Origin: Chrysochromulina parva
Lineage: Eukaryota; Haptophyta; Prymnesiales; Chrysochromulinaceae
Direction of reading: 5' to 3'
DNA: 12,893 bases
NCBI GenBank assembly: GCA_002887195.1
Contig: PJAB01001681.1
Span: forward strand, 1-12,893
The position numbers and the translations under genes are program-made. The first letter of the stretch is position 1; every line of letters starts with the position of its first letter. This document shows positions 1 through 12,893 of the stretch, one piece after another. The notes below the pieces were generated by a model. The model did no database searches and had not been told where the DNA came from. It saw only the letters and a list, made by a program, of their open reading frames with translations.

Positions 1-159
1 TTCTTTTGGGAGTTTTCGGCCAACGAGGTCGAGTTCTCGGCGAGGTCGGCCTTCTTCTTTTGGGAGTTTTCGGCCAACGAGGTCGAGTTCTCGGCGAGGT
101 CGGCCTTCTTCTTTTGGGAGCTTTCGGCCAACGACGTCGAGTTCTCGGCGAGGTCGGCC
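1..159 (-). repeat. 54-bp coding tandem repeat (18-residue unit) at the window edge
   Basis: Nearly three copies of a 54-bp unit lie at about 1-51, 52-105 and 106-159. Read on the minus strand in the exon 12 frame, each encodes ADLAENSTSLAENSQKKK or a one-residue variant. The two copies nearest the edge look identical where they overlap; the inner copy differs at a few bases. The array probably continues beyond position 1. Confidence 0.85.
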
Positions 160-3100
160 TCGCGTTTGGGGGAGGAGGTCAAGAGGCCGCCGCTGCCCGA
201 CACGGCGCTCTCCTCGCTTCGCCCCTTGGCATCGAGCATCAGTTGCGTGGGCGGCGCTGGCAGTTGAGGCAGCGCGCCGCGCGAAGAGGAAGTGGGCATG
301 GCGAAAGCGATGGCGCGCGAAAAGAGGTCATGCGGAATCGCCAAAATAGGGTCTCCTCGGGCGGAGCTCACAAAGGAGGACGGTAGCTGTTCGGTCGACA
401 TGGAGGACTTGACCTTCGAAGCGCCGGAATGCGCCGGATTGGCGCTCGAGGCGGCGCTCGAGGCGGCTACGGTCGAGGAAGCCTCGGCGCTCGAGGCGGC
501 GCTCGAGGCGGCCTCGGTCGAGGAGGCCTCTGGCGGCGAGGGCGGGGGCGAGAAAGGGTAGGGGGCAACACGAGTGCGGGCGACGGTGGATGAGGAGGAG
601 GTGGTGGTGGCGGCGGGGCGGCGGCCGGAGATGAGGCCGAGATCGCCGTGATTGACCATCGTCTGCCACTGGAATTCGTCAAACCACTCGAGGGCCGCCT
701 GGCGTAGCGCCGATGGCGGCGGCGGAGGCGCGGGCGGCGAGGGCGGCGGCGAGGCGGGCGGCCCGGGCGGCGGCCTGGCTCGAGGGTCGGCTCGGCGGTC
801 GGCGAGTGCGGCGAGCGAATCGTCGAACGACTCTGCGCGCCTGCCGAGCATCGGGCGACTCATCAGCTTAGCGGCAATCAGCGGTAATCAGCGGCAATCA
901 GCGGCAATCAGCGGCAATCAGCGGTCATCAATGGTCTCGGCGCGCCTGCCGAGCATCGGGCGACTCATCAGCTTAGCGGCAATCAGCGGCAATCAGTGGT
1001 CTCATCCGTGTCTAGCAGCGGTCAGAGTGGCAATCGGACGCACTCAGAGGCAATCACCTGGGGAGCATTGGGCTCTCCCGGACGGACGGATGCTGGGAAG
1101 GCTGATGAGAGTGCGATCTCGAGGCGCGCAGATCGTCGAGATGGTCCCTCGAGCCAGGGACAGTGTCCAGATGCGCAAGGTGCTGCGAGGCGGAGGATAA
1201 CGTCGACAAGCCGCGCCTGCCGATCACGGGACTCTCGTCCCCGGGGGTCAGTGATCCAAATATGGACGAGAGAGACGCGCTCGATAACTGCCGGTGCAAG
1301 CTCGGGCCGGCGAACGCTTTCGGGTCTCGTCTCCTCGTCGAGTGGGTTGGGCTCATCTCCTCGTCGTCATCAGAGGCGTCCTCGAGTGGGCTCTTGGCCA
1401 TGCGCGACTCCCGCTTCGATGTGCGCGTGGCGCCCTCGAGCAAGAGCTGCGCGGGAAGCGGTGGCCATCAGAGGGACATTAGAGGGTCATCAGTAATGGC
1501 CGAACCATTTCGAGGGTCATCAGAGGGGCATTAGAGGGTCATCAAAGGGACATTCGAGGGTCATCAAAGGGACATTCGAGGGTCATCAGAGGGGCATTAG
1601 AGGGTCATCAGAGGGGCATTAGAGGGTCATCAAAGGGACATTCGAGGGTCATCAAAGGGACATTCGAGGGGCCATGTATGCACCTGCTCTGCCGTGTGCG
1701 CCTTCGCTTCCGGTACCGACTCCCAGCGTTTCTTCTCCACTTCGGACGCGACCTCGAGGAGCTTCTCCTCGGCCGCCACCTGATGAGGGACGCAATCATG
1801 TGCACTCAGACGCAATCAGAGCTTCTCCTCGGCCGCCACCTGATGAGGGACGCCATCAGACGGCATCAGACAGCATCAGACAACCATCAGACGCCATCAG
1901 ACGCCATCAAGCACCATCAAGCACCGGTCACCTCGTTCCGTTCTCGCTCGCGCGAGATTTGCATGTACGGGAGCAGCGAGGCAGTATCGACTTGGATGAC
2001 GTCCTCCACCGAGGCGGAGATGTTGATGCGTTGAAGCAGCATGTGCATCCGCTTCTTGAGGTGGTTCACGTTCACACCCGTCTCGGTGATCAAGTGGAGG
2101 CGCACGTGGCAGTGGCGCCACACCTTGTGCTTCTTGAGCATGTGGGTGATGAGGAGGAGAAGCCCACCGTCGTGCTTAATCCACCACACATCGATGTAGC
2201 CCGCCTGCGGCTCGTGGTTCGTGGGGAAGTCTTTGACGTTGTGGCACACGAGCATCGCCTTCTGGCGGAGCGTCGCCTGAGGAGGAAGGCAATCAGAGCT
2301 CATCCGAGGCAATCAGAGCATCGTCTTCTGGCGGAGCGTCGCCTGATGAGGGAGGCAATCAAAGCTCATCCGAGGCAATCAGAGCATCGCCTTCTGGCGG
2401 AGCGTCGCCTGATGAGGGAGGCAATCAAAGCTCATCCGAGGCAATCAGAGCATCGCCTTCTGGCGGAGCGTCGCCTGATGAGGGAGGCAATCAGAGCTCA
2501 TCCGAGGCAATCAGAGCATCGCCTTCTGGCGGTGCGTCGCTTGGTGGAGCGGGAACTCAGGGGCAGGTGATGAAACACGGGACAGTGACGAAACTCGGGA
2601 CAGGTGACGACACAATCCGAGATGCAATGAGAAGCAATCCGAGATGCAATCCGAGATGCGAATCAGTGTGGCTCTCACCTGGTGAATGGTGGAGAGGAAC
2701 TCGGGCACGTGCTTGGACGGATTGTTCTTCCAGTACCACGGCCAGCCCATGAGGATCGTATTTGGCTTCAGGGAGCCAAGCCCCGCGCACCTGCATGCAT
2801 GCAATGGGTGGCAGTCGGAGGCGATTAGGGGCCATCAGTGGCAGGCGCAAGCCGACTGGTGAGGGAGCCTAATTAGGAAGCCAGGGGAGCCTAATTAGGG
2901 AGCCTAGTGAGGGAGCCTAATTAGGGAGCCAAGCTCCGCTCACTGTATGGCATAGGCCTTGCCATCGCTTGTGTTATGCGAGAGGATCGCCATGGGAAAG
3001 CCTTGCAACCCAATATGCTTCATGAGGCTCGCCATCACGCGCTCCTCCTCCTCCGCCGCGAGCACAGGCGCGATATCGTGGATCGCCTGATGAGGGAGGC

Positions 3101-6074
3101 AATCAGAGCTGATCGAGGCACTTGGGGGCAATCCAAGGCACCCTGCTGATGAGGGAGGCAATCAGAGCTGATCGAGGCAATCAGGGGCAATCCAAGGCAC
3201 CCTGGGGTGCTTACCTCCCCCTTGCGCAGTGCACAATGGCAATCAGTGGCAATCAGTGGCAATCAGTGGCAATCAGTGACAATCAAGGTACCTCCCCCTT
3301 GCGCAGAGGCACAATGGCCGCCGCGACGATCAGTCCCGTGCCGTGACGAAGTTGATGCGCCACGGAGAACATCATCGTGTGCGTGTGCCCGACCCCGAGG
3401 ATGGCGTCGTCGCAGATCTCACCGATCTCGCCGTCCGGGGCGGCGGCCGCGGCGCCGGCAATCGCAGCCTCCTGTGCCTGCAAGCTCCGCAGCTGTGCTA
3501 CTCGTGGATCCTCTGAGCCCAACATGGCGCCGACACGGGCGCCGTGTTGGGCGCCATGGCCCAAGCTAGCACCCACGCCGCCGGCCTGGAGCGCACTCGA
3601 GGGCGCGCGCGCCTTTGCCATATTAGTCGACTCGGCGACTCGGCGCATTGCCATATTAGGCGACTTGGCCGAATCTTCGGCGAGAGAGACGTCCTCGGGC
3701 GCCGTCGTGGGCGCCGCCGTGGGCCGATCGGCAGTCCGGTCGACCTCCTGCAGGGAATAGAGCAGCGGCTTCGAGCATCAAGAGGTATGTGCGTCAGAGG
3801 TAAAGAGCAGGGTTATATAAGCACCTGCAAGGTATAGAGCAAGAGCAGCTGCGGCTTCCAATTCTTATCCAAATGCGCGGCCATGTCGATCGAGAGGAGC
3901 GACTTGACAGCCACGCGAAAGCGCAGGCCGTGTATTGCCGAGCCATAGTCCACGGAGGCAGTGGTGCGCACCTGTGGGGAAGCGCAGGCGCCGTGGTGAG
4001 CGATGGTTGACGGAGGCAGAGGTGCGCACGATGACGATGAGAAGGACGAGCCACAGGAACCCACCCCGAGGCCATCAGAGGCCATCAGAGGCCATCAGAG
4101 GCCATCAGAGGCCATCAGACGCACGATGACGATGAGGAGGACGAGCCACAGGACCCACGCAATGATCGCGTAGATCCAATCGATGAGGAACTGTACGGTC
4201 ACGCACAGCACAAAGCCTGCGAGCCCACTCGACCAATGAAAGTACTTCCAGCGGGGCCGCCAGGTGGGATCCTTGAGGTAGTCGAGGAAGAAGCAATTGA
4301 GGTTCATCGAGGCATAGGTCAACAGGAAGCACCTGTGGGGAAGCGCGGGCGCCGTGATGAGCAAAGGCGACGTGGTGAGCGCCCGCATGCTGGGCAAGGC
4401 GGCTTCAGGTGCTTGCTTACATAGAGAGGAGCGGCGCGATCAGGTTGAGCTCGCCCAGCATCACGAGGAGAGCCCCAATGAGCCAGGAGAGGCCAAGGGC
4501 ACGCTTGGGCTCCCCGTCAGTGAGGACGGCGAAGGGCTTGAGGTAGCGGATCGTGCCCGAGGCAGAGATAGAGGCGAGGAGCATCGGGGCTACTGTTAAG
4601 CATTGCATCGCCTGCCCGAGGCTCGAGACGATAATACCAACCTGCGACGCGGCCATCCGAGGCCATCCGAGGTCATCAGAGATCATCCGAGGCCATCCGA
4701 GGTCATCAGAGATCATCCGAGGCCATCCGAGGTCATCAGAGATTCGAGCTGCGGATGCCAACCTGCGCGGCAGCCACCGAGGGATAGAGGAGCGTGTTGA
4801 TCTGGCCATGGTCCTGCTGCAGGTACGCGCGGGAGCCTACGCCCGCCCAGAGGAACATGAAGGACATGTACATGACGTAGCTGCCGCAGATGGCGCCGAG
4901 CGTGCCCACGGGGATCGAAGCCACCTGATGAAGGATGCAATCAAGAGCTGTCAACAGAGATCAGATGAGGTCATCAGTTGTCATCAAGCTATCGGATGAG
5001 GGAGGCAATCAAGAGGTGTCCTCAGAGGTCCTATGAGGTCATCAGGTGTCATCAAGCTACCGGATCGCGCAGCTTGGCGGCGCGGTTGGCGCCCGAGAGG
5101 ATGCCCGTGAAGCAAGGGAAGAAGATGGCGAGGCACGTCGAGAAGTCATACTCGCCACCAAAATTGGGTCCAAAGTTGTTATAGAAGTTGGTGGTCGAGA
5201 GGCCAGATGCTTTAATGTAGCCCCCTGGGGCTAGGCGCCGGCCAACTATACCGGAACCGGTGCCGGGGTAGGAGGCGTTGATGGCACTGCTGTTGGTGTA
5301 GCTGCTGTTGGCGTAGCTGCTCATGGCGTCGCTGCTGCTGCCTTCGAAGACCCCGAGCGACATATCATACGACTCGAGATTTGGAGCTCCGATGAGCGAG
5401 ATATAGAACGAGATCAGCGTGTACAGCACGATGATGAAGAAGAGGACCCCGATCTGCGAGACGATCTTGGTGCCCGCGTAATTGGAGAGGGCGCAGAAGA
5501 GCATGAAGATCGAGCCCCACAGACGCACATCGAAGTTGCGGAAGCGGAAGCTCCCGGTCAGCTTGAGGGTTTCGTCAAGCGCAAAGAGCTCCTCGCATGC
5601 ACCGAGGCACTCTAGGACAGCAAGGCAGACGAACCCTAGGAAGTAGACGATGCCAGTAGCCGTGGCGATTTCCTTGCCGAGGGCCCGCACGAGCATCATG
5701 TAGACACCATGGGCAGTGTGTGAGCCGCACGTGGCGATCGCCGACATGGCCAGCGCGGTCGTCAGTGCGACGCCGAATGAGAGCGTCACGATCAGGATCG
5801 TCAGGCCGAGGCCCGCGTAGCCGACGATCAAGTAGAAGCGCAAGAAGATGATGACGCCCCACATGTTTTCGCACGTGGGCACGAGCACGCCCTTGAACAT
5901 GCCCAGCTTGTGCTCGACGCTGTGCCCTTTGTGAGCCTCGCTCGTATTCTCAGGCTTGCTCATTGGCAATGGCAAGTTGGCCTTCGTTTCTCTGCCCCTG
6001 GTTCGCGCAGCGCGAAGCCGTGCGGCATCCGAAACGGGCGCGGCGGGCCGCGCATTGGTCGCGGTCTTCGACAT
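1..6074 (-). CDS. Cation-chloride cotransporter, KCC-like (SLC12 family), 12 exons, 3' partial
   Basis: This gene encodes a membrane carrier expected to move K+ and Cl- together. Exons (minus strand): 6074-5061, 4924-4763, 4641-4421, 4332-4125, 3971-3825, 3747-3292, 3086-2944, 2790-2679, 2276-1932, 1779-1684, 1446-1058, 840-1. Every intron is GT-AG and every join keeps the frame, giving at least 1377 residues against roughly 1100 for typical KCCs. The start at 6074 is the first ATG in the open frame and has G at -3. Family marks are the TM1 segment around N70, a TM6 motif FFPCFTGILSGAN (318-330), WRPRWKYFHW (490-499) after the last helices, and the C-terminal IDVWWIKHDGG (849-859). The large loop lies between TM5 and TM6, as in KCCs rather than NKCCs. 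Splice sites are predicted by eye; family assignment is secure, the K-Cl subtype less so. Confidence 0.9.
841..1057 (-). repeat. Intron 11 of the cotransporter gene, with decamers and a duplicated acceptor region
   Basis: A 217-bp intron that splits an Arg codon (AG|G). It holds four tandem decamers, sense CTGATTGCCG, at about 885-925. The acceptor plus exon 12 start (about 832-885) is repeated inside the intron at about 931-980. The 3' end also resembles the end of exon 11 (both contain ATGCTC..CAG), as if the junction had been duplicated and spliced from one copy to the next. Use of the inner acceptor would reach TGA within nine codons. Confidence 0.75.
1447..1683 (-). repeat. Intron 10 of the cotransporter gene, with 20-22 bp minisatellite
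   Basis: A 237-bp intron with donor CAG|GTGCAT and acceptor GCGCAG, phase 0. From about 1480 to 1670 it is almost wholly a minisatellite whose units alternate between 'gggcattagagggtcatcag' and 'gggacattcgagggtcatca' on the plus strand. I did not find a clear copy of flanking exon sequence here, unlike most introns of this gene. The 3' end CGCTTCCC..CAG partly resembles that of introns 3 and 4. Confidence 0.65.
1780..1931 (-). repeat. Intron 9 of the cotransporter gene, with a copy of the exon 10 start
   Basis: A 152-bp phase 0 intron. The last bases of the intron plus the first 21 bases of exon 10 (VAAEEKL) are repeated once inside the intron, at about 1825-1855. Splicing to that inner acceptor would give VAAEEKL followed at once by TGA. 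The 5' half is made of decamer-like units, sense CTGATGGCGT and variants. Confidence 0.75.
2277..2678 (-). repeat. Intron 8 of the cotransporter gene, carrying a 66-bp satellite that includes exon 9 sequence
   Basis: At 402 bp this is the longest intron. A 66-bp unit begins at 2251, 2317, 2383, 2449 and 2515 (plus strand); the first is true exon 9 and the other four lie inside the intron. Each unit contains an acceptor-like CATCAG, about 27 bases of the exon 9 start (ATLRQKAML) and then TGA in the same frame. The outermost copy (2514-2558) lacks the acceptor and instead continues into exon 8-like sequence, so it is a junction copy without an intron. The 5' part has degenerate CGGATTGC-type repeats. 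Confidence 0.85.
2791..2943 (-). repeat. Intron 7 of the cotransporter gene, with palindromic repeats
   Basis: A 153-bp intron splitting a Gln codon (CA|G). Its first 24 bases after the donor repeat the start of exon 8 with few changes; both read GCTTGGCTCCCT. The middle contains three exact copies of the 10-bp palindrome CCTAATTAGG at 2868-2877, 2890-2899 and 2916-2925, each next to GGCTCCCT-like sequence. A CTGATGGCC element lies nearer the 3' end. Confidence 0.75.
3087..3291 (-). repeat. Intron 6 of the cotransporter gene, with five decamers and a copied donor
   Basis: A 205-bp phase 0 intron. Five tandem decamers, sense ACTGATTGCC, fill about 3238-3288. Just beyond them, 3211-3240 repeats the end of exon 6 together with a donor that is closer to consensus (GTAAGC) than the one required by the frame (GTACCT). 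The 3' part is a tandem repeat with two acceptor-like ends, at 3087 and 3146. The first 22 bases of each (3087-3108 and 3146-3167) are identical. Confidence 0.8.
3748..3824 (-). other. Intron 5 of the cotransporter gene, bounded by a direct repeat
   Basis: The shortest intron, 77 bp, phase 0. The last bases of exon 5 (CTCTATACCTTGCAG) recur as the last bases of the intron (CTCTATTCCCTGCAG), so the donor lies at the end of one copy and the acceptor at the end of the other. This is the layout expected when a segment containing AG|G is duplicated in tandem. Confidence 0.8.
3972..4124 (-). repeat. Intron 4 of the cotransporter gene, with five decamers and an intronless junction copy
   Basis: A 153-bp phase 0 intron with donor ATC|GTGCGT. 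Five decamers, sense CTGATGGCCT, lie at about 4072-4119. Next comes 3999-4064, which matches the last ~35 bases of exon 4 (one base change and one inserted base in about 39) and runs without a break into a copy of the first ~30 bases of exon 5 (about five changes). The last 30 bases (3972-4001) match those of intron 3 with two changes. Confidence 0.85.
4333..4420 (-). other. Intron 3 of the cotransporter gene
   Basis: An 88-bp intron with consensus donor GTAAGC and acceptor CCCCACAG, splitting a Met codon (AT|G). It has no decamer array and no clear copy of flanking exon sequence, so it looks the most conventional. Its last 30 bases (4333-4362) are nearly identical to those of intron 4, which shows the two share a source for the 3' end. 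Confidence 0.8.
4642..4762 (-). repeat. Intron 2 of the cotransporter gene, 30-bp repeats and a 10-bp flanking duplication
   Basis: A 121-bp phase 0 intron. Three 30-bp units (plus strand 'gaggccatccgaggtcatca' then 'gagatcatcc') fill about 4650-4742. The 10-mer CCAACCTGCG occurs exactly at both edges, 4637-4646 and 4758-4767, straddling each splice site. This looks like a target-site duplication around AG|GT and also leaves the exact splice point ambiguous by sequence alone. Confidence 0.8.
4925..5060 (-). repeat. Intron 1 of the cotransporter gene
   Basis: A 136-bp phase 0 intron, donor CCG|GTAGCT and acceptor CATCAG|GTGG. Its edges share an imperfect 12-mer (ATCCGGTAGCTT against ATCAGGTGGCTT, 10 of 12). 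Inside is an imperfect tandem duplication of about 65 bp; each unit contains 'gtcatcaagcta' on the plus strand. The 3' end GATTGCATCCTTCATCAG is a variant of the end shared by introns 6, 8 and 9. Confidence 0.75.
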
Positions 6075-7232: not shown

Positions 7233-10200
7233 ATGGCCATGGACTTCATGTTCGACACTGGGGCTCCACCAGCATGGCAGACGGCCATCAGCTCCATGCT
7301 GGATATGAACGACGAGAGCGGAGGCCCAACGTCCAAAGCACAACGAAAGCTGAGGGCGGCCATGGAGCTAGGCCTCATCGTCGACGGCGACGGCCTGAGG
7401 AGTGACGGCACCAGAGGCGCGCCCCAGGCGAGCATCCCCGAGCACGAGCCGTTTTGGCATTCGCTCATAGTCATGCTCGAAGAAGCTACCCAGATGCACG
7501 AGTCTTTCGGCTTCGAGATTGAGGCGTGCGGCGTAGCGGCCTCCCACGCGTATGATGCTCGAATGGAGGCGGCGCGCAAGCTCGTCGGTAACCACGAGGC
7601 CCTCCTCTATGACCTGTCGCACCCGCAGCCGCGCACGCAGCAAGTGCTCGAGCGCGTGCCCGAAGGCAGCCGCATCTACGCCGACCAGGCGCTTCTCGAG
7701 TGCGCGCGCCGGCTGCTTGGCCCGCGGCGAGGTTCCGAGACGCACGAGGTGCGCTGCGAGATGAACAATCCGACGCAGGCGAACGCGTGGGCGACGGTGT
7801 GGCGCTACCTCCAGACTCGCATCCAGTCGAAGCCTGAGCAGAAGCCTGGCCGCCCTCCAGACATGTCCCCCGAGGCTGCGGCCTCCATGCTCGCGGTGCT
7901 CGAAGAGATCGCGGGCAGCAGCCTGACGTTGGCGCACAAGCTCTCGACGCCTCATTGGCTGATGCTTCAAGATGCGCTCGAGGAGCGAGAGAGCTCAGGC
8001 GCACCGGCAGAGGGCGCTGCAGCGGCTCATTCGCAAGCGGCGCGCGAGGCGGCTGCGCGAAAGCTCATTGGAAACCATGATCGCGTGCTGCGCGATCTGT
8101 GTAACCCGTCCCCGATCACCAACATTGAAGGCAAGCCGCTCACGCAGCTCGAGCTCGTGCGCGTCGACGTGGGGTGCGCGCCGTACGCGGACGAGGTGCT
8201 GCGCGAGACGGCGCGTCGGCTGCTCGGACGGCGCGCGGGACTGGAGCTGCTCGAGGTACACCCCGATCCGAGCAACGAAGCGCAGACGGCGGCGTGGGGC
8301 GCAACGGCATATTACCTGTGCGGGCGGCTGCAGGCGACGGACGATGAGAGGCCCGGGCGCACACCTGATATGCCTCCTGCCGCCGCGGCGGCGATGAAGG
8401 CGGTGCTTCGGGAGGTGGCCGGGCCACGCGCCCGTCTCGACGCGTCGCGAGTCTGGGCAGGTCTCGATTTGCTGCTTGAACAAGGCGCCGGGTTTGATTC
8501 GGTGGCCGACGGCCGCGCGAAACCATTTCCCCACATGGCGAGGCAGGAGGCCGCCGAGAGGCTGCTCCGCAACCGGCACAAAGTGCTGGCCGACGTGTGC
8601 AACCCGTCCACGACACTCAACATCTACGGCAAGCCGCTCACGCAGCTCGAGCTTGGGCGTGTCGACCCTCGCCTGTCGCCGTACGTGGACGAGCTCATGC
8701 AGGAGACAGTCCGACGGCTGCTCGGCAAGCGCGCAGGTTCAGGTGCCCTTGAGGCGAAATTGCATCTGAACAACCATGAGCAGTGCACCACGTGGCACAA
8801 GGCCGCCACGTACCTCATCGGCCGAATCCAGTCGACGCCGGAGCAAAAGCCCGGGCGCGAGCCTGACATGAGCTTCATTGCCGGCAACGCAACGCTCGCT
8901 GTGCTGGCCGAGGTCGGGCAGTCGGCCCTGACCGCAACCATCGCTGCGACGGCGCCGCACTGGGCGATGCTGCGCAAGGCGCTGGGCAAGGGATCAACGA
9001 CGGCAGCTACACGTGAAGCTGTGGACTTGACGGCGGCGGGTAACCCCTTACAGTATCGCGAGGCGGCTGCGCGTAAGCTCATTGGAAACCATGTCAATGT
9101 GCTGTGCGACGTGTGCAATCCGTCCACGACCCTCAACATCTACGGCAAGCCGCTCACGCAGCTCGAGCTCGTGCGCGTCGACGTGGGGTGCGCGCCGTAC
9201 GCGGACGAGGTGCTGCGCGAGACGGCGCGTCGGCTGCTCGGACAGCGCGCGGGACTGGAGCTGCTCGAGGTACACCCCGACCCGAGCAACGAGGCGCAGA
9301 CGGCGGCGTGGGGTGCAACGGCAGAGTATCTCTTGGGTCGTATCCAATCGACGCACGCGCAAAGGCCTGGGCGCACACCCGACATGGAGGTACAGGCGCA
9401 CGCCGCAATGAAGGAAGTACTCATGCAGCTGCTGCTGCAAACCAGCCCATGGTCAGCAGTGCGGCAAATGTCAGCAAGAATGATCCACCCGCCTTCAGAC
9501 TCCCCCAGCGAAATACGCGCGCCACGGCGTCACCGGCAGAACGCGAAGTTTCACGAGCTGCCACGCGAGCACGGAGCCGACAAGTACCATGCAGGGGAGG
9601 GGGGCGAGTACCATGCAGGGGAGGGGGGCGAGTACGGCAAGCACGGCTACGAGGGTGGTTACGAAGGCGGCTACGAGGGAGGCTTCGAGCATGGCATCGA
9701 AGAAGGTGAGCAGGAGGGCGGAGGCCCGTTGGCTTCCCTCGCCGCCGCCCTGGCCTCCTTGGACAAGGCAGTGGCTAACGGCCAGGCAGACGAAGGCAGA
9801 CCAGACGACGATCCGATGCAAGCGAATGAGCCGATGGTGGACCAGTTTGAGGATGTGCTCGGTGACCTTGCTTCGACTCGCTTGGAAGCCCGGCGCATGC
9901 TCTTCGAGCAAGCGGCCACCCGACTCTCGCGTCTTCATGCGGCCGTGGCGCCGACAGACCCTCGTCTCCTTTCAGTGTCTCTGGCGCCTGTGGCGGCTCG
10001 TGCGGAGCGCCGTGCCGAGCGTTCAGGCGAGCACTTCGCGCCCCTTCCACAGGTGCCCCCGCCACCCCGCGCCCCACGGGTGGTGGCGTTTGCTTCAAAC
10101 CAGGAAGAGGCGAGGGAGGCTGTGTTGGAGAGAGTGAAGGCGGCGGAGGCGAAGGCGAGGGAGGCGGAGGCGAAGGCGAGGGAGGCGGAGGCGAATTATC

Positions 10201-10412
10201 TGAGATCGATGCCGCAACCAAGGCTAGAACCTTCATCGGAACATTCGTCACCCTCGATCTATGACGCACCGCCGCCGAATGAGCCGCCGAAGGTCCTCGT
10301 GCCGGAGGAAGTGCGGCCGTTACCCGTCGTAAGAGACACCGCGAAATCCGTAGTCACTTCCGTGAAAGTGATGAGTGCGTTCGGCTGGGGACGGAGCAAG
10401 GCGACGAAGTGA
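7233..10412 (+). CDS. Unrecognised 1059-residue protein with four copies of a ~165-residue domain
   Basis: I do not recognise this family. The start at 7233 (aagcATGGCC) has a strong context, and the frame is open for 3180 bases without introns. After an N-terminal segment of about 110 residues come four related domains starting near residues 110, 271, 436 and 608. The core reads N(I/E)xGKPLTQLELxRVD, PYxDE, RRLLGxRAG, W..A..YLxGRxQS and PGRxPDM; it looks helical and hydrophilic. Copy 1 is the most diverged. Residues about 785-820 are Gly/Tyr/His/Glu-rich (YEGGYEGGYEGGFEHG). A short AKAREAE heptad repeat near 973-988 suggests a coiled coil. The C-terminus is Pro-rich. No signal peptide, membrane helix or catalytic motif is visible. 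It could be a scaffold or structural protein, but that is a guess. Confidence 0.8.
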   Translation: MAMDFMFDTGAPPAWQTAISSMLDMNDESGGPTSKAQRKLRAAMELGLIVDGDGLRSDGTRGAPQASIPEHEPFWHSLIVMLEEATQMHESFGFEIEACGVAASHAYDARMEAARKLVGNHEALLYDLSHPQPRTQQVLERVPEGSRIYADQALLECARRLLGPRRGSETHEVRCEMNNPTQANAWATVWRYLQTRIQSKPEQKPGRPPDMSPEAAASMLAVLEEIAGSSLTLAHKLSTPHWLMLQDALEERESSGAPAEGAAAAHSQAAREAAARKLIGNHDRVLRDLCNPSPITNIEGKPLTQLELVRVDVGCAPYADEVLRETARRLLGRRAGLELLEVHPDPSNEAQTAAWGATAYYLCGRLQATDDERPGRTPDMPPAAAAAMKAVLREVAGPRARLDASRVWAGLDLLLEQGAGFDSVADGRAKPFPHMARQEAAERLLRNRHKVLADVCNPSTTLNIYGKPLTQLELGRVDPRLSPYVDELMQETVRRLLGKRAGSGALEAKLHLNNHEQCTTWHKAATYLIGRIQSTPEQKPGREPDMSFIAGNATLAVLAEVGQSALTATIAATAPHWAMLRKALGKGSTTAATREAVDLTAAGNPLQYREAAARKLIGNHVNVLCDVCNPSTTLNIYGKPLTQLELVRVDVGCAPYADEVLRETARRLLGQRAGLELLEVHPDPSNEAQTAAWGATAEYLLGRIQSTHAQRPGRTPDMEVQAHAAMKEVLMQLLLQTSPWSAVRQMSARMIHPPSDSPSEIRAPRRHRQNAKFHELPREHGADKYHAGEGGEYHAGEGGEYGKHGYEGGYEGGYEGGFEHGIEEGEQEGGGPLASLAAALASLDKAVANGQADEGRPDDDPMQANEPMVDQFEDVLGDLASTRLEARRMLFEQAATRLSRLHAAVAPTDPRLLSVSLAPVAARAERRAERSGEHFAPLPQVPPPPRAPRVVAFASNQEEAREAVLERVKAAEAKAREAEAKAREAEANYLRSMPQPRLEPSSEHSSPSIYDAPPPNEPPKVLVPEEVRPLPVVRDTAKSVVTSVKVMSAFGWGRSKATK
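7560..9440 (+). repeat. Four tandem domain repeats inside the 1059-residue protein
   Basis: Copies start near 7560, 8043, 8538 and 9057, spaced by about 161-172 codons. Copies 2 and 4 are 176/180 identical in DNA over 8130-8309 and 9144-9323; three of the four differences are silent. Copies 3 and 4 share 60/62 bases over 8592-8653 and 9108-9169, where copy 2 is different. Copy 1 aligns only at protein level (EAARKLVGNH, ADQALLECARRLLG, PGRPPDM). Confidence 0.85.
9585..9632 (+). repeat. 24-bp coding tandem repeat, two copies
   Basis: Two identical 24-bp units encode YHAGEGGE twice, leading into the Gly/Tyr-rich segment (YEGG repeats) of the 1059-residue protein. Such identical short units usually come from replication slippage. 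Confidence 0.85.
10149..10190 (+). repeat. 21-bp coding tandem repeat encoding a heptad
   Basis: Two identical 21-bp units encode AKAREAE, exactly one coiled-coil heptad each. Partial units flank them. The segment should extend a short helix in the C-terminal part of the 1059-residue protein. Confidence 0.75.
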
Positions 10413-11053: not shown

Positions 11054-11524
11054 ATGCCGACACCGAAGATGGACGCCCGCGACGCGTGGCTGGCCTCCTC
11101 GACAACAGGCAACGCGCGCCGTCGCGCCAGCGGCGGCCTCGACTATAAAAAGTTCGACAAGATCGTCGACTCGGACGACGAGGACGAAAGCCGAAAGCCG
11201 CAGCCTCCTGCACAGATGCTGGGCATGCCGCCGGAGCTCAAGCTCGCGCTCGCCAAGGTGGAGGCCGCCAAGGAGCGCGGCGATCAAGCGGGCACCATGC
11301 TCGCCATGGCTGAGCTCGAGGCGCGGCTCCAGGATCAGCCAGCCGATTTCAAGCGCATGTTCCTCGACGGTGCCGGCCTTCCCGGCCGTGCGGGGAAGAA
11401 GTTGAGCGCGCTCGATCGGAAGCTTGCCGAGATCGACGATGTGGCCGCAAGCATCAAGGCGCTCACATCCCCAGTGAGCCAGCCACCAGGTAGCGCCGCC
11501 AACGGCACGGGCGGCGGCGGCGGC

Positions 11525-11557
<33 letters not shown>

Positions 11558-12893
11558 TCCGCCCTCGACGTTGCGGCGCTCGACGCCGCGAACGCGAAGA
11601 CGAAGTCGATGCTGGCTGAGCTGCAGGCGTCCAAGGAGAAGCTCGCGGCGCAGCTGGCCGAGGTGGAGAAACACAAGGCGGCCGCGGCCGAGGCGGCGGC
11701 TGCCGTCGCGCAGCGCAATAAAGACCTGCAGGAAGCGCAAGAGAAGAAGCAGAAGCAGGGTGAGATCGTCGACAACACGGTGCACGTCGCACGCAAGGCG
11801 ATGGTTGAGCAGGCGAAGATCTATCAGGAGGAGGACAAGCTACGCGCGGAGATGTTCCTCTCACTCAAGGTAGCCGTACTGAGTGCCGGACTGAGTGCGA
11901 TTGATTGAGCTGCGCGCGGAGGTGTTTCTCTCATGACCCTGACGAGTCTCATTATCAGTTGACCCCAGACACCCTCTCGCACACCCTCTCGCTCACCCTT
12001 TCACCCTCCCTCTGCAGGAGCGAGGCAACCTGGCGATGCAGAAGCAGGACCTGACCGCCGCGCGAGCGTTCTACTCGGAGGCACTCGAGATCACGCAGAT
12101 TGCGGACCTGGAGCGCGCTAAGCTCCTCGGCAACCGCTCGGTGTGCTACACACAGCTGGGCTACTCGGATCTGGCTAAGGCGGACGCGGAGGAGGCGGCA
12201 GAGCTCGCTCCCGAATGGGGCAAGGCGCACTACAGGCTCGGATGCCTGCGGCTGCAGGTCACTCATCACCACTCATCACCACTGATTACCACACGCTTTC
12301 CCCCACAATGCGGCTGCATGCCAGCGAGCTCTCCGGTGCTCTCGACCTCTCGATGGCCTCCCTTGATAGCAACTGATGGGCTCTGATTGCCTCGCTCATC
12401 AGGCCAACGAGCTCTCCGGTGCTCTCGACTCGATGCGTACCGCGAAGGAGCTGATGCCCGAGATGCCCGAAGTCGGTGCGAAGCTGCTTGAGATTGAGGC
12501 CGCGTGCGAGGAGGCGGAGAAGGTGAAGGCGGCGGCAGCGAAGGAAGAGGCGGCGGCTGCGAAGGCGGCGGCGCCAGCGCCATCGCCTGCGCAGGCAGCG
12601 TCAGCGCAGGCGGCAGCTGCACCAGCGCAGGCCGCGGCGGCTGCGCTGGTGGCGGCTAGGCAGGTGGCGGCCGCACAGGAAGACGATGACGACGACGTGG
12701 ACGGCGACGTAGCTTCCGGAGAGGCACCTGCAGATGCAAAGAAGAAGAAGAAGAAGAAGAAGAAGAAGGACAAGGCGGTAGTGCCGTCCGGGGTGGCGGC
12801 GGCGACGACGACAGCGGCGGCGGCGACGACAGCGGCGACGACAGCGGCGGCGGCGGCGGCGGCGGCGGTAGTGGCTCGGGTGGGGTACTCTGC
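11054..12893 (+). CDS. TPR co-chaperone-like protein with coiled coil, three exons, 3' partial
   Basis: Exons are 11054-11869, 12018-12257 and 12403-12893 (runs off the window); both introns are GT-AG and phase 0. The start is the first ATG in frame, with A at -3. Exon 1 (272 residues) has KKFDKIVDSDDEDE, helical segments, a Gly6-Ser11 linker and an Ala/Lys/Glu-rich coiled coil. Exon 2 and the start of exon 3 form three TPR units. K272, N276, N311, K341 and R345 fall at the five carboxylate-clamp positions known from HOP/STI1-type TPRs, so binding to the EEVD tail of Hsp70 or Hsp90 is likely. Exon 3 continues into Ala-rich, acidic, Lys10 and Ala/Thr low-complexity sequence. It is not a full HOP: the long N-terminal coil is different. 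The exact orthologue is unknown. Confidence 0.8.
11509..11558 (+). repeat. GGC/AGC trinucleotide run coding Gly-Ser linker
   Basis: An uninterrupted GGC run passes into an AGC run, coding six Gly and about eleven Ser in the TPR protein. It probably acts as a flexible linker before the coiled coil and is likely to vary in length between strains. Confidence 0.85.
11870..12017 (+). other. Intron 1 of the TPR gene, with a copy of the exon 1 end
   Basis: A 148-bp phase 0 intron, donor CAAG|GTAGCC, acceptor CTCTGCAG preceded by a long CACCCTCTC-type pyrimidine tract. Bases 11908-11933 repeat 11838-11863 near the end of exon 1 with three changes in 26. CTGAGTGC is also doubled just after the donor. 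Retaining the intron gives a stop at 11906-11908. Confidence 0.85.
12258..12402 (+). repeat. Intron 2 of the TPR gene, with decamers and an intronless junction copy
   Basis: A 145-bp phase 0 intron. It opens with decamers ACTCATCACC (twice) and ACTGATTACC. Bases 12309-12356 copy the end of exon 2 joined directly to the start of exon 3 (TGCGGCTGCA then GCCAGCGAGCTCTCC), with two substitutions and a 3-base insertion. The last 22 bases (12381-12402) match the 3' end of intron 6 of the cotransporter gene, on the opposite strand, at 21 of 22 positions. Confidence 0.85.
12739..12768 (+). repeat. AAG run coding ten lysines
   Basis: Ten consecutive AAG codons in exon 3 of the TPR gene follow an acidic stretch. 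Such a run might act as a nuclear or nucleolar signal. It is followed by an imperfect GCG/ACG array (about 12796-12870) coding Ala and Thr. Confidence 0.8.

Follow-up and report, generated by a model that had tools for sequence, protein, structure and literature searches.

Introners and introner-like elements are recognized by sequence similarity among many introns of a single genome, and some of the earlier introner families carry duplications of 3 to 9 bp, with any duplication evident in 49 of the 130 families assessed (Gozashti 2022, PMC9860276). The introner elements of Amoebophrya, defined among non-canonical introns, have direct repeats of 3 to 5 nt and inverted repeats of 8 to 20 nt (PMC7789003), and the neointrons of Daphnia pulex, which are traced to staggered double-strand breaks, have exon-neointron repeats of 4 to 12 bp (PMC4202315). 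A survey reported repeats of 4 to 30 bp (mean, 11.4) near splice sites (PMC11782384), and in tandem genomic duplication (the Rogers model, described for a potato RdRp gene), exon duplication gives the splice signals and leaves the protein unchanged (PMC4974935). Statements on these papers refer to the parts of their text that were available. The present analysis concerns the window, that is, the whole stretch of 12,893 nucleotides from the haptophyte Chrysochromulina parva (contig PJAB01001681.1 of assembly GCA_002887195.1), which is one contig of a 45-Mb genome assembly, and in particular intron 4 of its SLC12-type gene, which contains a copy of the junction between the two exons that flank it.

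The introns of C. parva shared a feature with each of these systems. As in introners, similar sequence was found in many introns of one genome, intron location having been checked in the sampled loci; as in Amoebophrya, direct repeats lay at intron edges and were spread across genes; as in Daphnia, an insert was combined with a direct exon repeat, and repeated rounds appeared inside one intron; and as in tandem genomic duplication, a duplicated exon would contribute a splice signal and leave the protein unchanged. They differed from introners in their 11- to 47-nt duplications (measured in 23 introns), far from the 3 to 9 bp of some families of the DNA-transposon type, in an insert composed of a variable decamer array, and in the apparent enlargement of existing introns. 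The direct repeats of Amoebophrya are far below this length; those of Daphnia are also shorter, and a shared insert family of the present kind is not described in the available text of that paper. In the Rogers AG/GT scheme both splice sites come from the duplicated exon, whereas in the simple introns of C. parva the GT came from the exon copy, and the AG, with the likely branch point, came from the shared insert. We read the present system as resembling an introner, a mini-element whose duplications are unusually long and whose insert is made of decamers; no description of decamer introners with long duplications was found among the titles and abstract openings listed from the open-licence literature.

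The junction copy in intron 4

The gene occupies positions 1..6074 of the minus strand, starts with an ATG at 6074, and runs off the contig end. Its frame was open across 11 predicted GT-AG introns, introns being defined throughout as in-frame predictions with domain continuity. Exon 1 had a Pfam match to AA_permease, and the transport domain matched SLC12A4 (PDB 7aip) with an E value of 1.1e-68 in an alignment that was free of gaps at the sites of introns 1 to 4; when joined exons 4 and 5 were aligned with the same chain, the exon 4-exon 5 junction likewise showed no gap. The gene is thus likely to encode a potassium-chloride transporter of the SLC12/KCC type (a cation-chloride cotransporter), as judged from sequence. 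Predicted intron 4 (3972..4124, minus strand; 153 nt, GT-AG, phase 0) begins with GTGCGT and ends with CCCCACAG. Along the minus strand, exon 4 ends in CTCATCGTCATC, the intron runs from GTGCGTCTGATGG to CTTCCCCACAG, and exon 5 opens with GTGCGCACCACTGCC.

An earlier note on this DNA had reported that intron 4 holds an uninterrupted copy of the exon 4-exon 5 junction, and alignment to the joined exons bore this out, including the mismatch counts, with the minus strand as the reading direction. The first part of the copy, A' (4064 down to 4030, minus strand), is 35 nt long and matches the final 34 nt of exon 4 apart from one substitution and one inserted base. The second part, B' (3998..4029, minus strand), reproduces the first 32 nt of exon 5 with five mismatches and follows A' with zero bases between them. 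The alignment score of the joined exons against the intron was 101, compared with a maximum of 35 in 2000 dinucleotide shuffles. The junction itself reads CATC/GTG and lacks an AG. No paralogue of the exon 4-5 pair was found elsewhere in the genome, all three matches at E <= 10 lying in the window locus. At least 110 other matches lay elsewhere in the genome, nearly all of them to the array of CTGATGGCCT decamers in intron 4 (40 of 222 candidates scored). A'^B' was also considered as an alternative exon and rejected, the predicted mRNA aligning to SLC12A4 without it.

Upstream of A', the same exon sequence occurs once more. A 39-nt stretch composed of the last 34 nt of exon 4 and GTGCG flanks both sides of a 55-nt insert, so that, along the minus strand, exon 4 is followed by GTGCGT, five CTGATGGCCT decamers and a few bases, then A', B', a sequence ending in CACGGCGCCTGCGCTTCCCCACAG, and exon 5. 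On the minus strand, the outer copy of the duplication lies at 4120..4158, the insert, with its five decamers and few bases, at 4065..4119, and the inner copy (A' plus GTGCG, with one substitution and one inserted base) at 4025..4064. Ungapped extension halted at the indel and gave 34 and 61 nt; the values of 39 and 55 nt result once the GTGGG that occurs on each side of the indel is counted in. A'^B' probably marks where exon 4 once met an older and shorter version of intron 4, an edge trapped when an array of CTGAT decamers was inserted with a 39-nt target-site duplication that spanned it. The 55-nt insert would have entered the old intron 5 nt downstream of its 5' splice site, and the intron would have grown, its 5' splice site shifting outward and the old junction being left inside. 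The exon 4 duplication ends 5 nt past the junction, and those of nine such composite introns, this one included, end 1 to 9 nt past it, as expected of insertion just inside an existing intron.

Intron 4 probably passed through two rounds, a first duplication that produced B' together with a second 3' module and then the decamer insertion. This second module, CACGGCGCCYGCGCTTCCCCACAG (3972..3995, minus strand), forms the end of intron 4; the same module (CACGGCGCC to CTTCCCCACAG) also closes intron 3 (4333-4356, minus strand) and had 117 copies in the genome at up to three mismatches, with none for the reversed control. A similar end closes a composite intron at another locus, L021. The equivalent of the short intron 4 in the window would be 3972..4029 (minus strand; 58 nt), on comparison of the reading of relative P0051 with the window frames.

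The relatives were predicted proteins from environmental contigs, and all comparisons with them were made at the protein level. Three states of the intron 4 site were read. The site was uninterrupted in P0005, P0038, P0049, P0054, and P0055, which may include cDNA. P0051 (16 members, 10 contigs) passed from intron 3 into exon 4, then into RTTASVDHHSPRRQMLTTAPALPHR, and reached exon 5 in another frame; set against the window frames, this corresponds to exon 4 followed by B' and the 3' module, without the array and without a second copy of the exon 4 end, and the protein points to a short intron 4 of 77 nt. The long form, which is that of the window, was seen in P0053, which ends ...IVRLMASDGL within the array, and in P0057 and P0059, which read the array, A', B', and exon 5; P0058 begins in exon 5 and has no bearing on these states. 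P0051 on the one hand and P0053, P0057, and P0059 on the other would thus represent absence and presence of the proposed insertion among close relatives. Since exon 4 of P0051 passes straight into B', with no array or second copy, the simplest reading of A'^B' is as the former exon/intron edge of the short form. Scans of viral contigs and genome contigs with P0051 for the relatives' DNA confirmed nothing.

These states also bear on how the copy arose. According to one explanation, raised in the earlier note, a spliced RNA was copied back and A'^B' is a reverse-transcribed exon-exon junction, which agrees with the exactness of the junction in the copy. In P0051, however, exon 4 enters B' without a second copy (protein evidence), so that the copied junction reads as an exon/intron edge in the shorter form, and the exon-end copies in the composite introns are bounded by a point 1 to 9 nt past the junction and by the insert, not by intact exons; copying back is therefore very improbable. 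The general view of that note, that the copy is a trace of intron construction with exon duplication as the key step, was upheld. Its other proposal, that the intron did not exist when the segment was duplicated, fits the older B' duplication, given the uninterrupted relatives and subject to their possible cDNA sources. It had further held that a relative with an older, unrelated intron at this site would count against its account. Such a case may be partly present in P0047, a more distant relative (60% identity) that leaves homology exactly at the intron 4 site, possibly through an intron of its own.

Intron 5 (3748-3824, minus strand) also differed among relatives, P0057 and P0058 reading different sequence immediately beyond exon 5 and P0059 departing nearby. 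The open reading frames of P0006 and P0007 leave homology away from the window introns (after QALQ and after FLIQ, respectively), a hint of lineage-specific intron positions.

The CTGAT module in other introns of the genome

The module CTGATTGCCTCCCTCATCAG occurred 2675 times in the genome (1372 + 1303) at up to two mismatches, and TGATTGCCTCCCTCATCAGGT, in which the module is followed by GT, occurred 471 times exactly; the reversed control gave no occurrence of either. The branch-point consensus is CTRAY. With CTGAT conforming to this consensus and CAG at the module's end, the element would supply the 3' half of an intron. A 5-nt symmetry (CTGAT...ATCAG) was also apparent in the module by eye.

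Copies of the next exon's start upstream of the module were scored, with a threshold of 28, in a 215-kb sample made up of the window, 20 stretches chosen for an array match, and 20 evenly spaced stretches. Of 57 modules in this sample 56 were usable, several of them sharing one tandem intron, and 28 of the 56 had an exon-start copy, against 3.75% in a mispaired control; the evenly spaced 60 kb contained four modules, all four with a copy. A second set comprised 40 loci, one per cluster in list order and from longer contigs only, with GT after the module by choice and C210:8099 omitted. There, 30 of the 40 module sites had a copy (mispaired control, 3.2%), beginning at the first base, the exact boundary, in 24 cases, at base 1-2 in 3, and further in in 3; at one of the 30 loci, L078, the supposed exon start is itself array-like.

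In the simple class, an exon start beginning with GT is followed by decamers ending in CTGATTGCCTCCCTCATCAG or a near variant, and these stand directly before an identical exon start. Twenty-three such introns, of which L064 had a score under 28, were hand-picked for an apparent exon ahead of the copy. Their duplications were 11 to 47 nt long, starting at the GT predicted as the 5' splice site, and their inserts 29 to 199 nt. Examples are exact duplications of 35 nt within an HMA domain (L019), 47 nt with a shared CTGAT included (L035), and 24 nt within a Chromo domain (L069). Six of eight spliced translations matched Pfam at E <= 0.01 and five passed a curated cut-off in at least one family, with no match for L020 and L035; in four, the junction fell within the matched stretch by residue count (HMA, U-box, Chromo, and methyltransferase). 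Intron retention would introduce a stop in 14 of 16 cases, the frame being chosen as the longest open one. The genome likely carries hundreds of young introns.

A duplication starting at a GT inside an exon would create a new intron whose 5' splice site came from the duplicated exon, with the element supplying the branch point (CTGAT) and the 3' AG and the mRNA left unchanged. Plain tandem duplication of AG/GT-containing exon sequence, which the earlier note had named as a proposed route of intron gain, did not hold for these clean cases, which take the 3' splice site from the shared insert and only the 5' GT from the duplicated exon. The duplication lengths suggest widely staggered nicks or template switching. 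In a variant of the chemistry that overlaps the insertion reading, micro-homology template switching during repair would copy a branch-point-to-3'-splice-site region into an exon break and restart upstream, producing insert and duplication in one step. The insert ends exactly at AG, consists of branch-point-like CTGAT words, and varies in length, all of which suits such copying, and the Daphnia neointrons show repeated staggered-break repair in the available text (PMC4202315). The restart point, however, offers scant micro-homology, with 0 to 3 nt shared before the GT in 22 of the 23 introns and 5 nt in L019, and we hold this variant to be rather doubtful.

Trapped junctions with the order A/GT...A'^B'...AG/B, as in intron 4, were found at L010, L014, L021 (two copies), and L049 in the 215-kb sample, with a weaker case at L048 (score, 26), and at L056, L072, L073, and L076 among the 40 loci. 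In all nine composites measured, a set that includes the window's and leaves L072 outside, the duplication was 15 to 34 nt by ungapped extension (39 nt for intron 4 with its indel), and the insert was sense-oriented with CTGAT-type words. Selection may account for this uniform orientation, given that CAG occurs in the antisense decamer. At L010 a 60-nt decamer insert is flanked by an exact duplication of 26 nt, at L014 an exact duplication of 29 nt flanks 30 nt, and in L076 the stretch between the duplication copies holds a further copy.

By the insertion reading, a duplication that begins with the exon following an old 3' splice site would make an intron grow at its 3' end. We infer that a single insertion process makes both the simple introns and the composites; it would account for the birth of introns, their extension at either end, and the trapping of junctions.

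Other introns and genes of the window

Exon-edge copies exceeded 300 shuffles in 6 of the 11 introns of the SLC12-type gene (introns 4, 6, 7, 8, 9, and 11) and fell between the 95% level and the shuffle maximum in introns 2 and 5; the same shuffle test gave none in introns 1, 3, and 10. All coordinates that follow for this gene are on the minus strand. Intron 6 (3087..3291) has a decamer array followed by an exon-end copy (GTACCT outside, GTAAGC inside; score 42, shuffle maximum 25), intron 7 (2791..2943) starts with a copy of the next exon start (32, maximum 26), intron 9 (1780..1931) has a 21-nt exact copy of the next exon start and a 39-nt element ending in CATCAG (42, maximum 21), and intron 11 (841..1057) contains a joined junction copy (32, maximum 28). 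Intron 8 (2277..2678), a second composite, consists of 66-nt units of exon start plus the 39-nt element, with an exon-end copy joined, by eye, to the first exon-start copy (54 against 24 for the exon start; 28 against 25 for the exon end). The decamer pattern matched 37 times in the window (chance mean, 0.14), 33 of the matches lying in the minus-strand gene, on its own strand, and the other four on the plus strand, at a plus-strand gene near 12.3 kb.

Intron 8 and several module sites at which CATCAG stands directly before the copy are arrays of element and exon start, and introns 2 and 5 end in weak copies of the exon end, as would follow from serial tandem duplication of exon sequence (Rogers AG/GT type or slippage) in which slippage inside the new intron later generated the decamers and no mobile element took part. 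Intron gain through duplication of an intron 3' end and exon start has been published for potato, according to the available text (PMC4974935). However, the single-element introns L019, L035, L020, and L085 show an apparent exon directly before the copy, and their insert belongs to a genome-wide family, which local duplication cannot provide. Tandem duplication by itself is accordingly unlikely.

Exon-edge copies also occur in two apparent introns of the plus-strand gene (11054-12893), near 11870-12018 (by eye) and near 12260-12402; the latter intron ends in CTCATCAG, and its next-exon-start copy scores 52. A plus-strand open reading frame of 1059 amino acids (7233-10412) contains several internal copies, by eye, of a module of about 130 residues and had no Pfam match. 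At 1-162 (minus strand), a 54-nt tandem repeat coding ..KKADLAENSTSLAENSQ.. forms the C-terminal end of the SLC12 gene and runs off the contig.

Weight of the evidence and meaning for intron origin

Several observations tell against a trapped older junction in intron 4 and against a common insertion process. Divergence is greater in B' (5/32) than in A' (1/34), the required direction, but the difference is not significant (P = 0.10), and intron 4 has a different module at its 3' end, so that the origin of B' is argued by analogy. The evidence from relatives consists of predicted proteins; P0051 and P0053 share a residue (IFIV) that is absent from the window, and P0051 may be a reversion through recombination between the two exon 4 copies and not the state before insertion. 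Ten of the 40 module sites had no exon-start copy at the threshold, and three of the 30 copies begin 9 to 23 nt in. L057 and L091 also pass as trapped junctions with a copied "exon end" that is the module itself, and at L052, L078, and L087 exon-end copies ending at the junction lack a following GT. A blind dinucleotide scan of the 215 kb for A/GT..A'^B'..AG/B showed no enrichment, GT-AG accounting for 11 of 822 events and other pairs for up to 34; we attribute this to tandem arrays, 6 of the 11 GT-AG events (5 loci) lying outside arrays by eye.

Tentatively, we regard it as possible that this genome is undergoing a burst of intron gain, in which a branch-point-to-3'-splice-site fragment (CTGAT decamers ending in CATCAG) is pasted into exons with 11- to 47-nt duplications, introns seed introns, and insertions near splice sites trap old junctions as a layered record of birth and growth. 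This would be a new class of introner and not a classical DNA transposon.

The origin of new introns is an old question with few cases caught in the act. In the young introns described here, the source, the target duplication, and the origin of the splice sites can be read directly, and environmental relatives appear to hold earlier states of intron 4. Duplications of this length suggest a chemistry of staggered breaks or target priming, which differs from what the available text describes for introners. A junction copy within an intron can look like a product of retro-copying and yet be an old splice site that became trapped.

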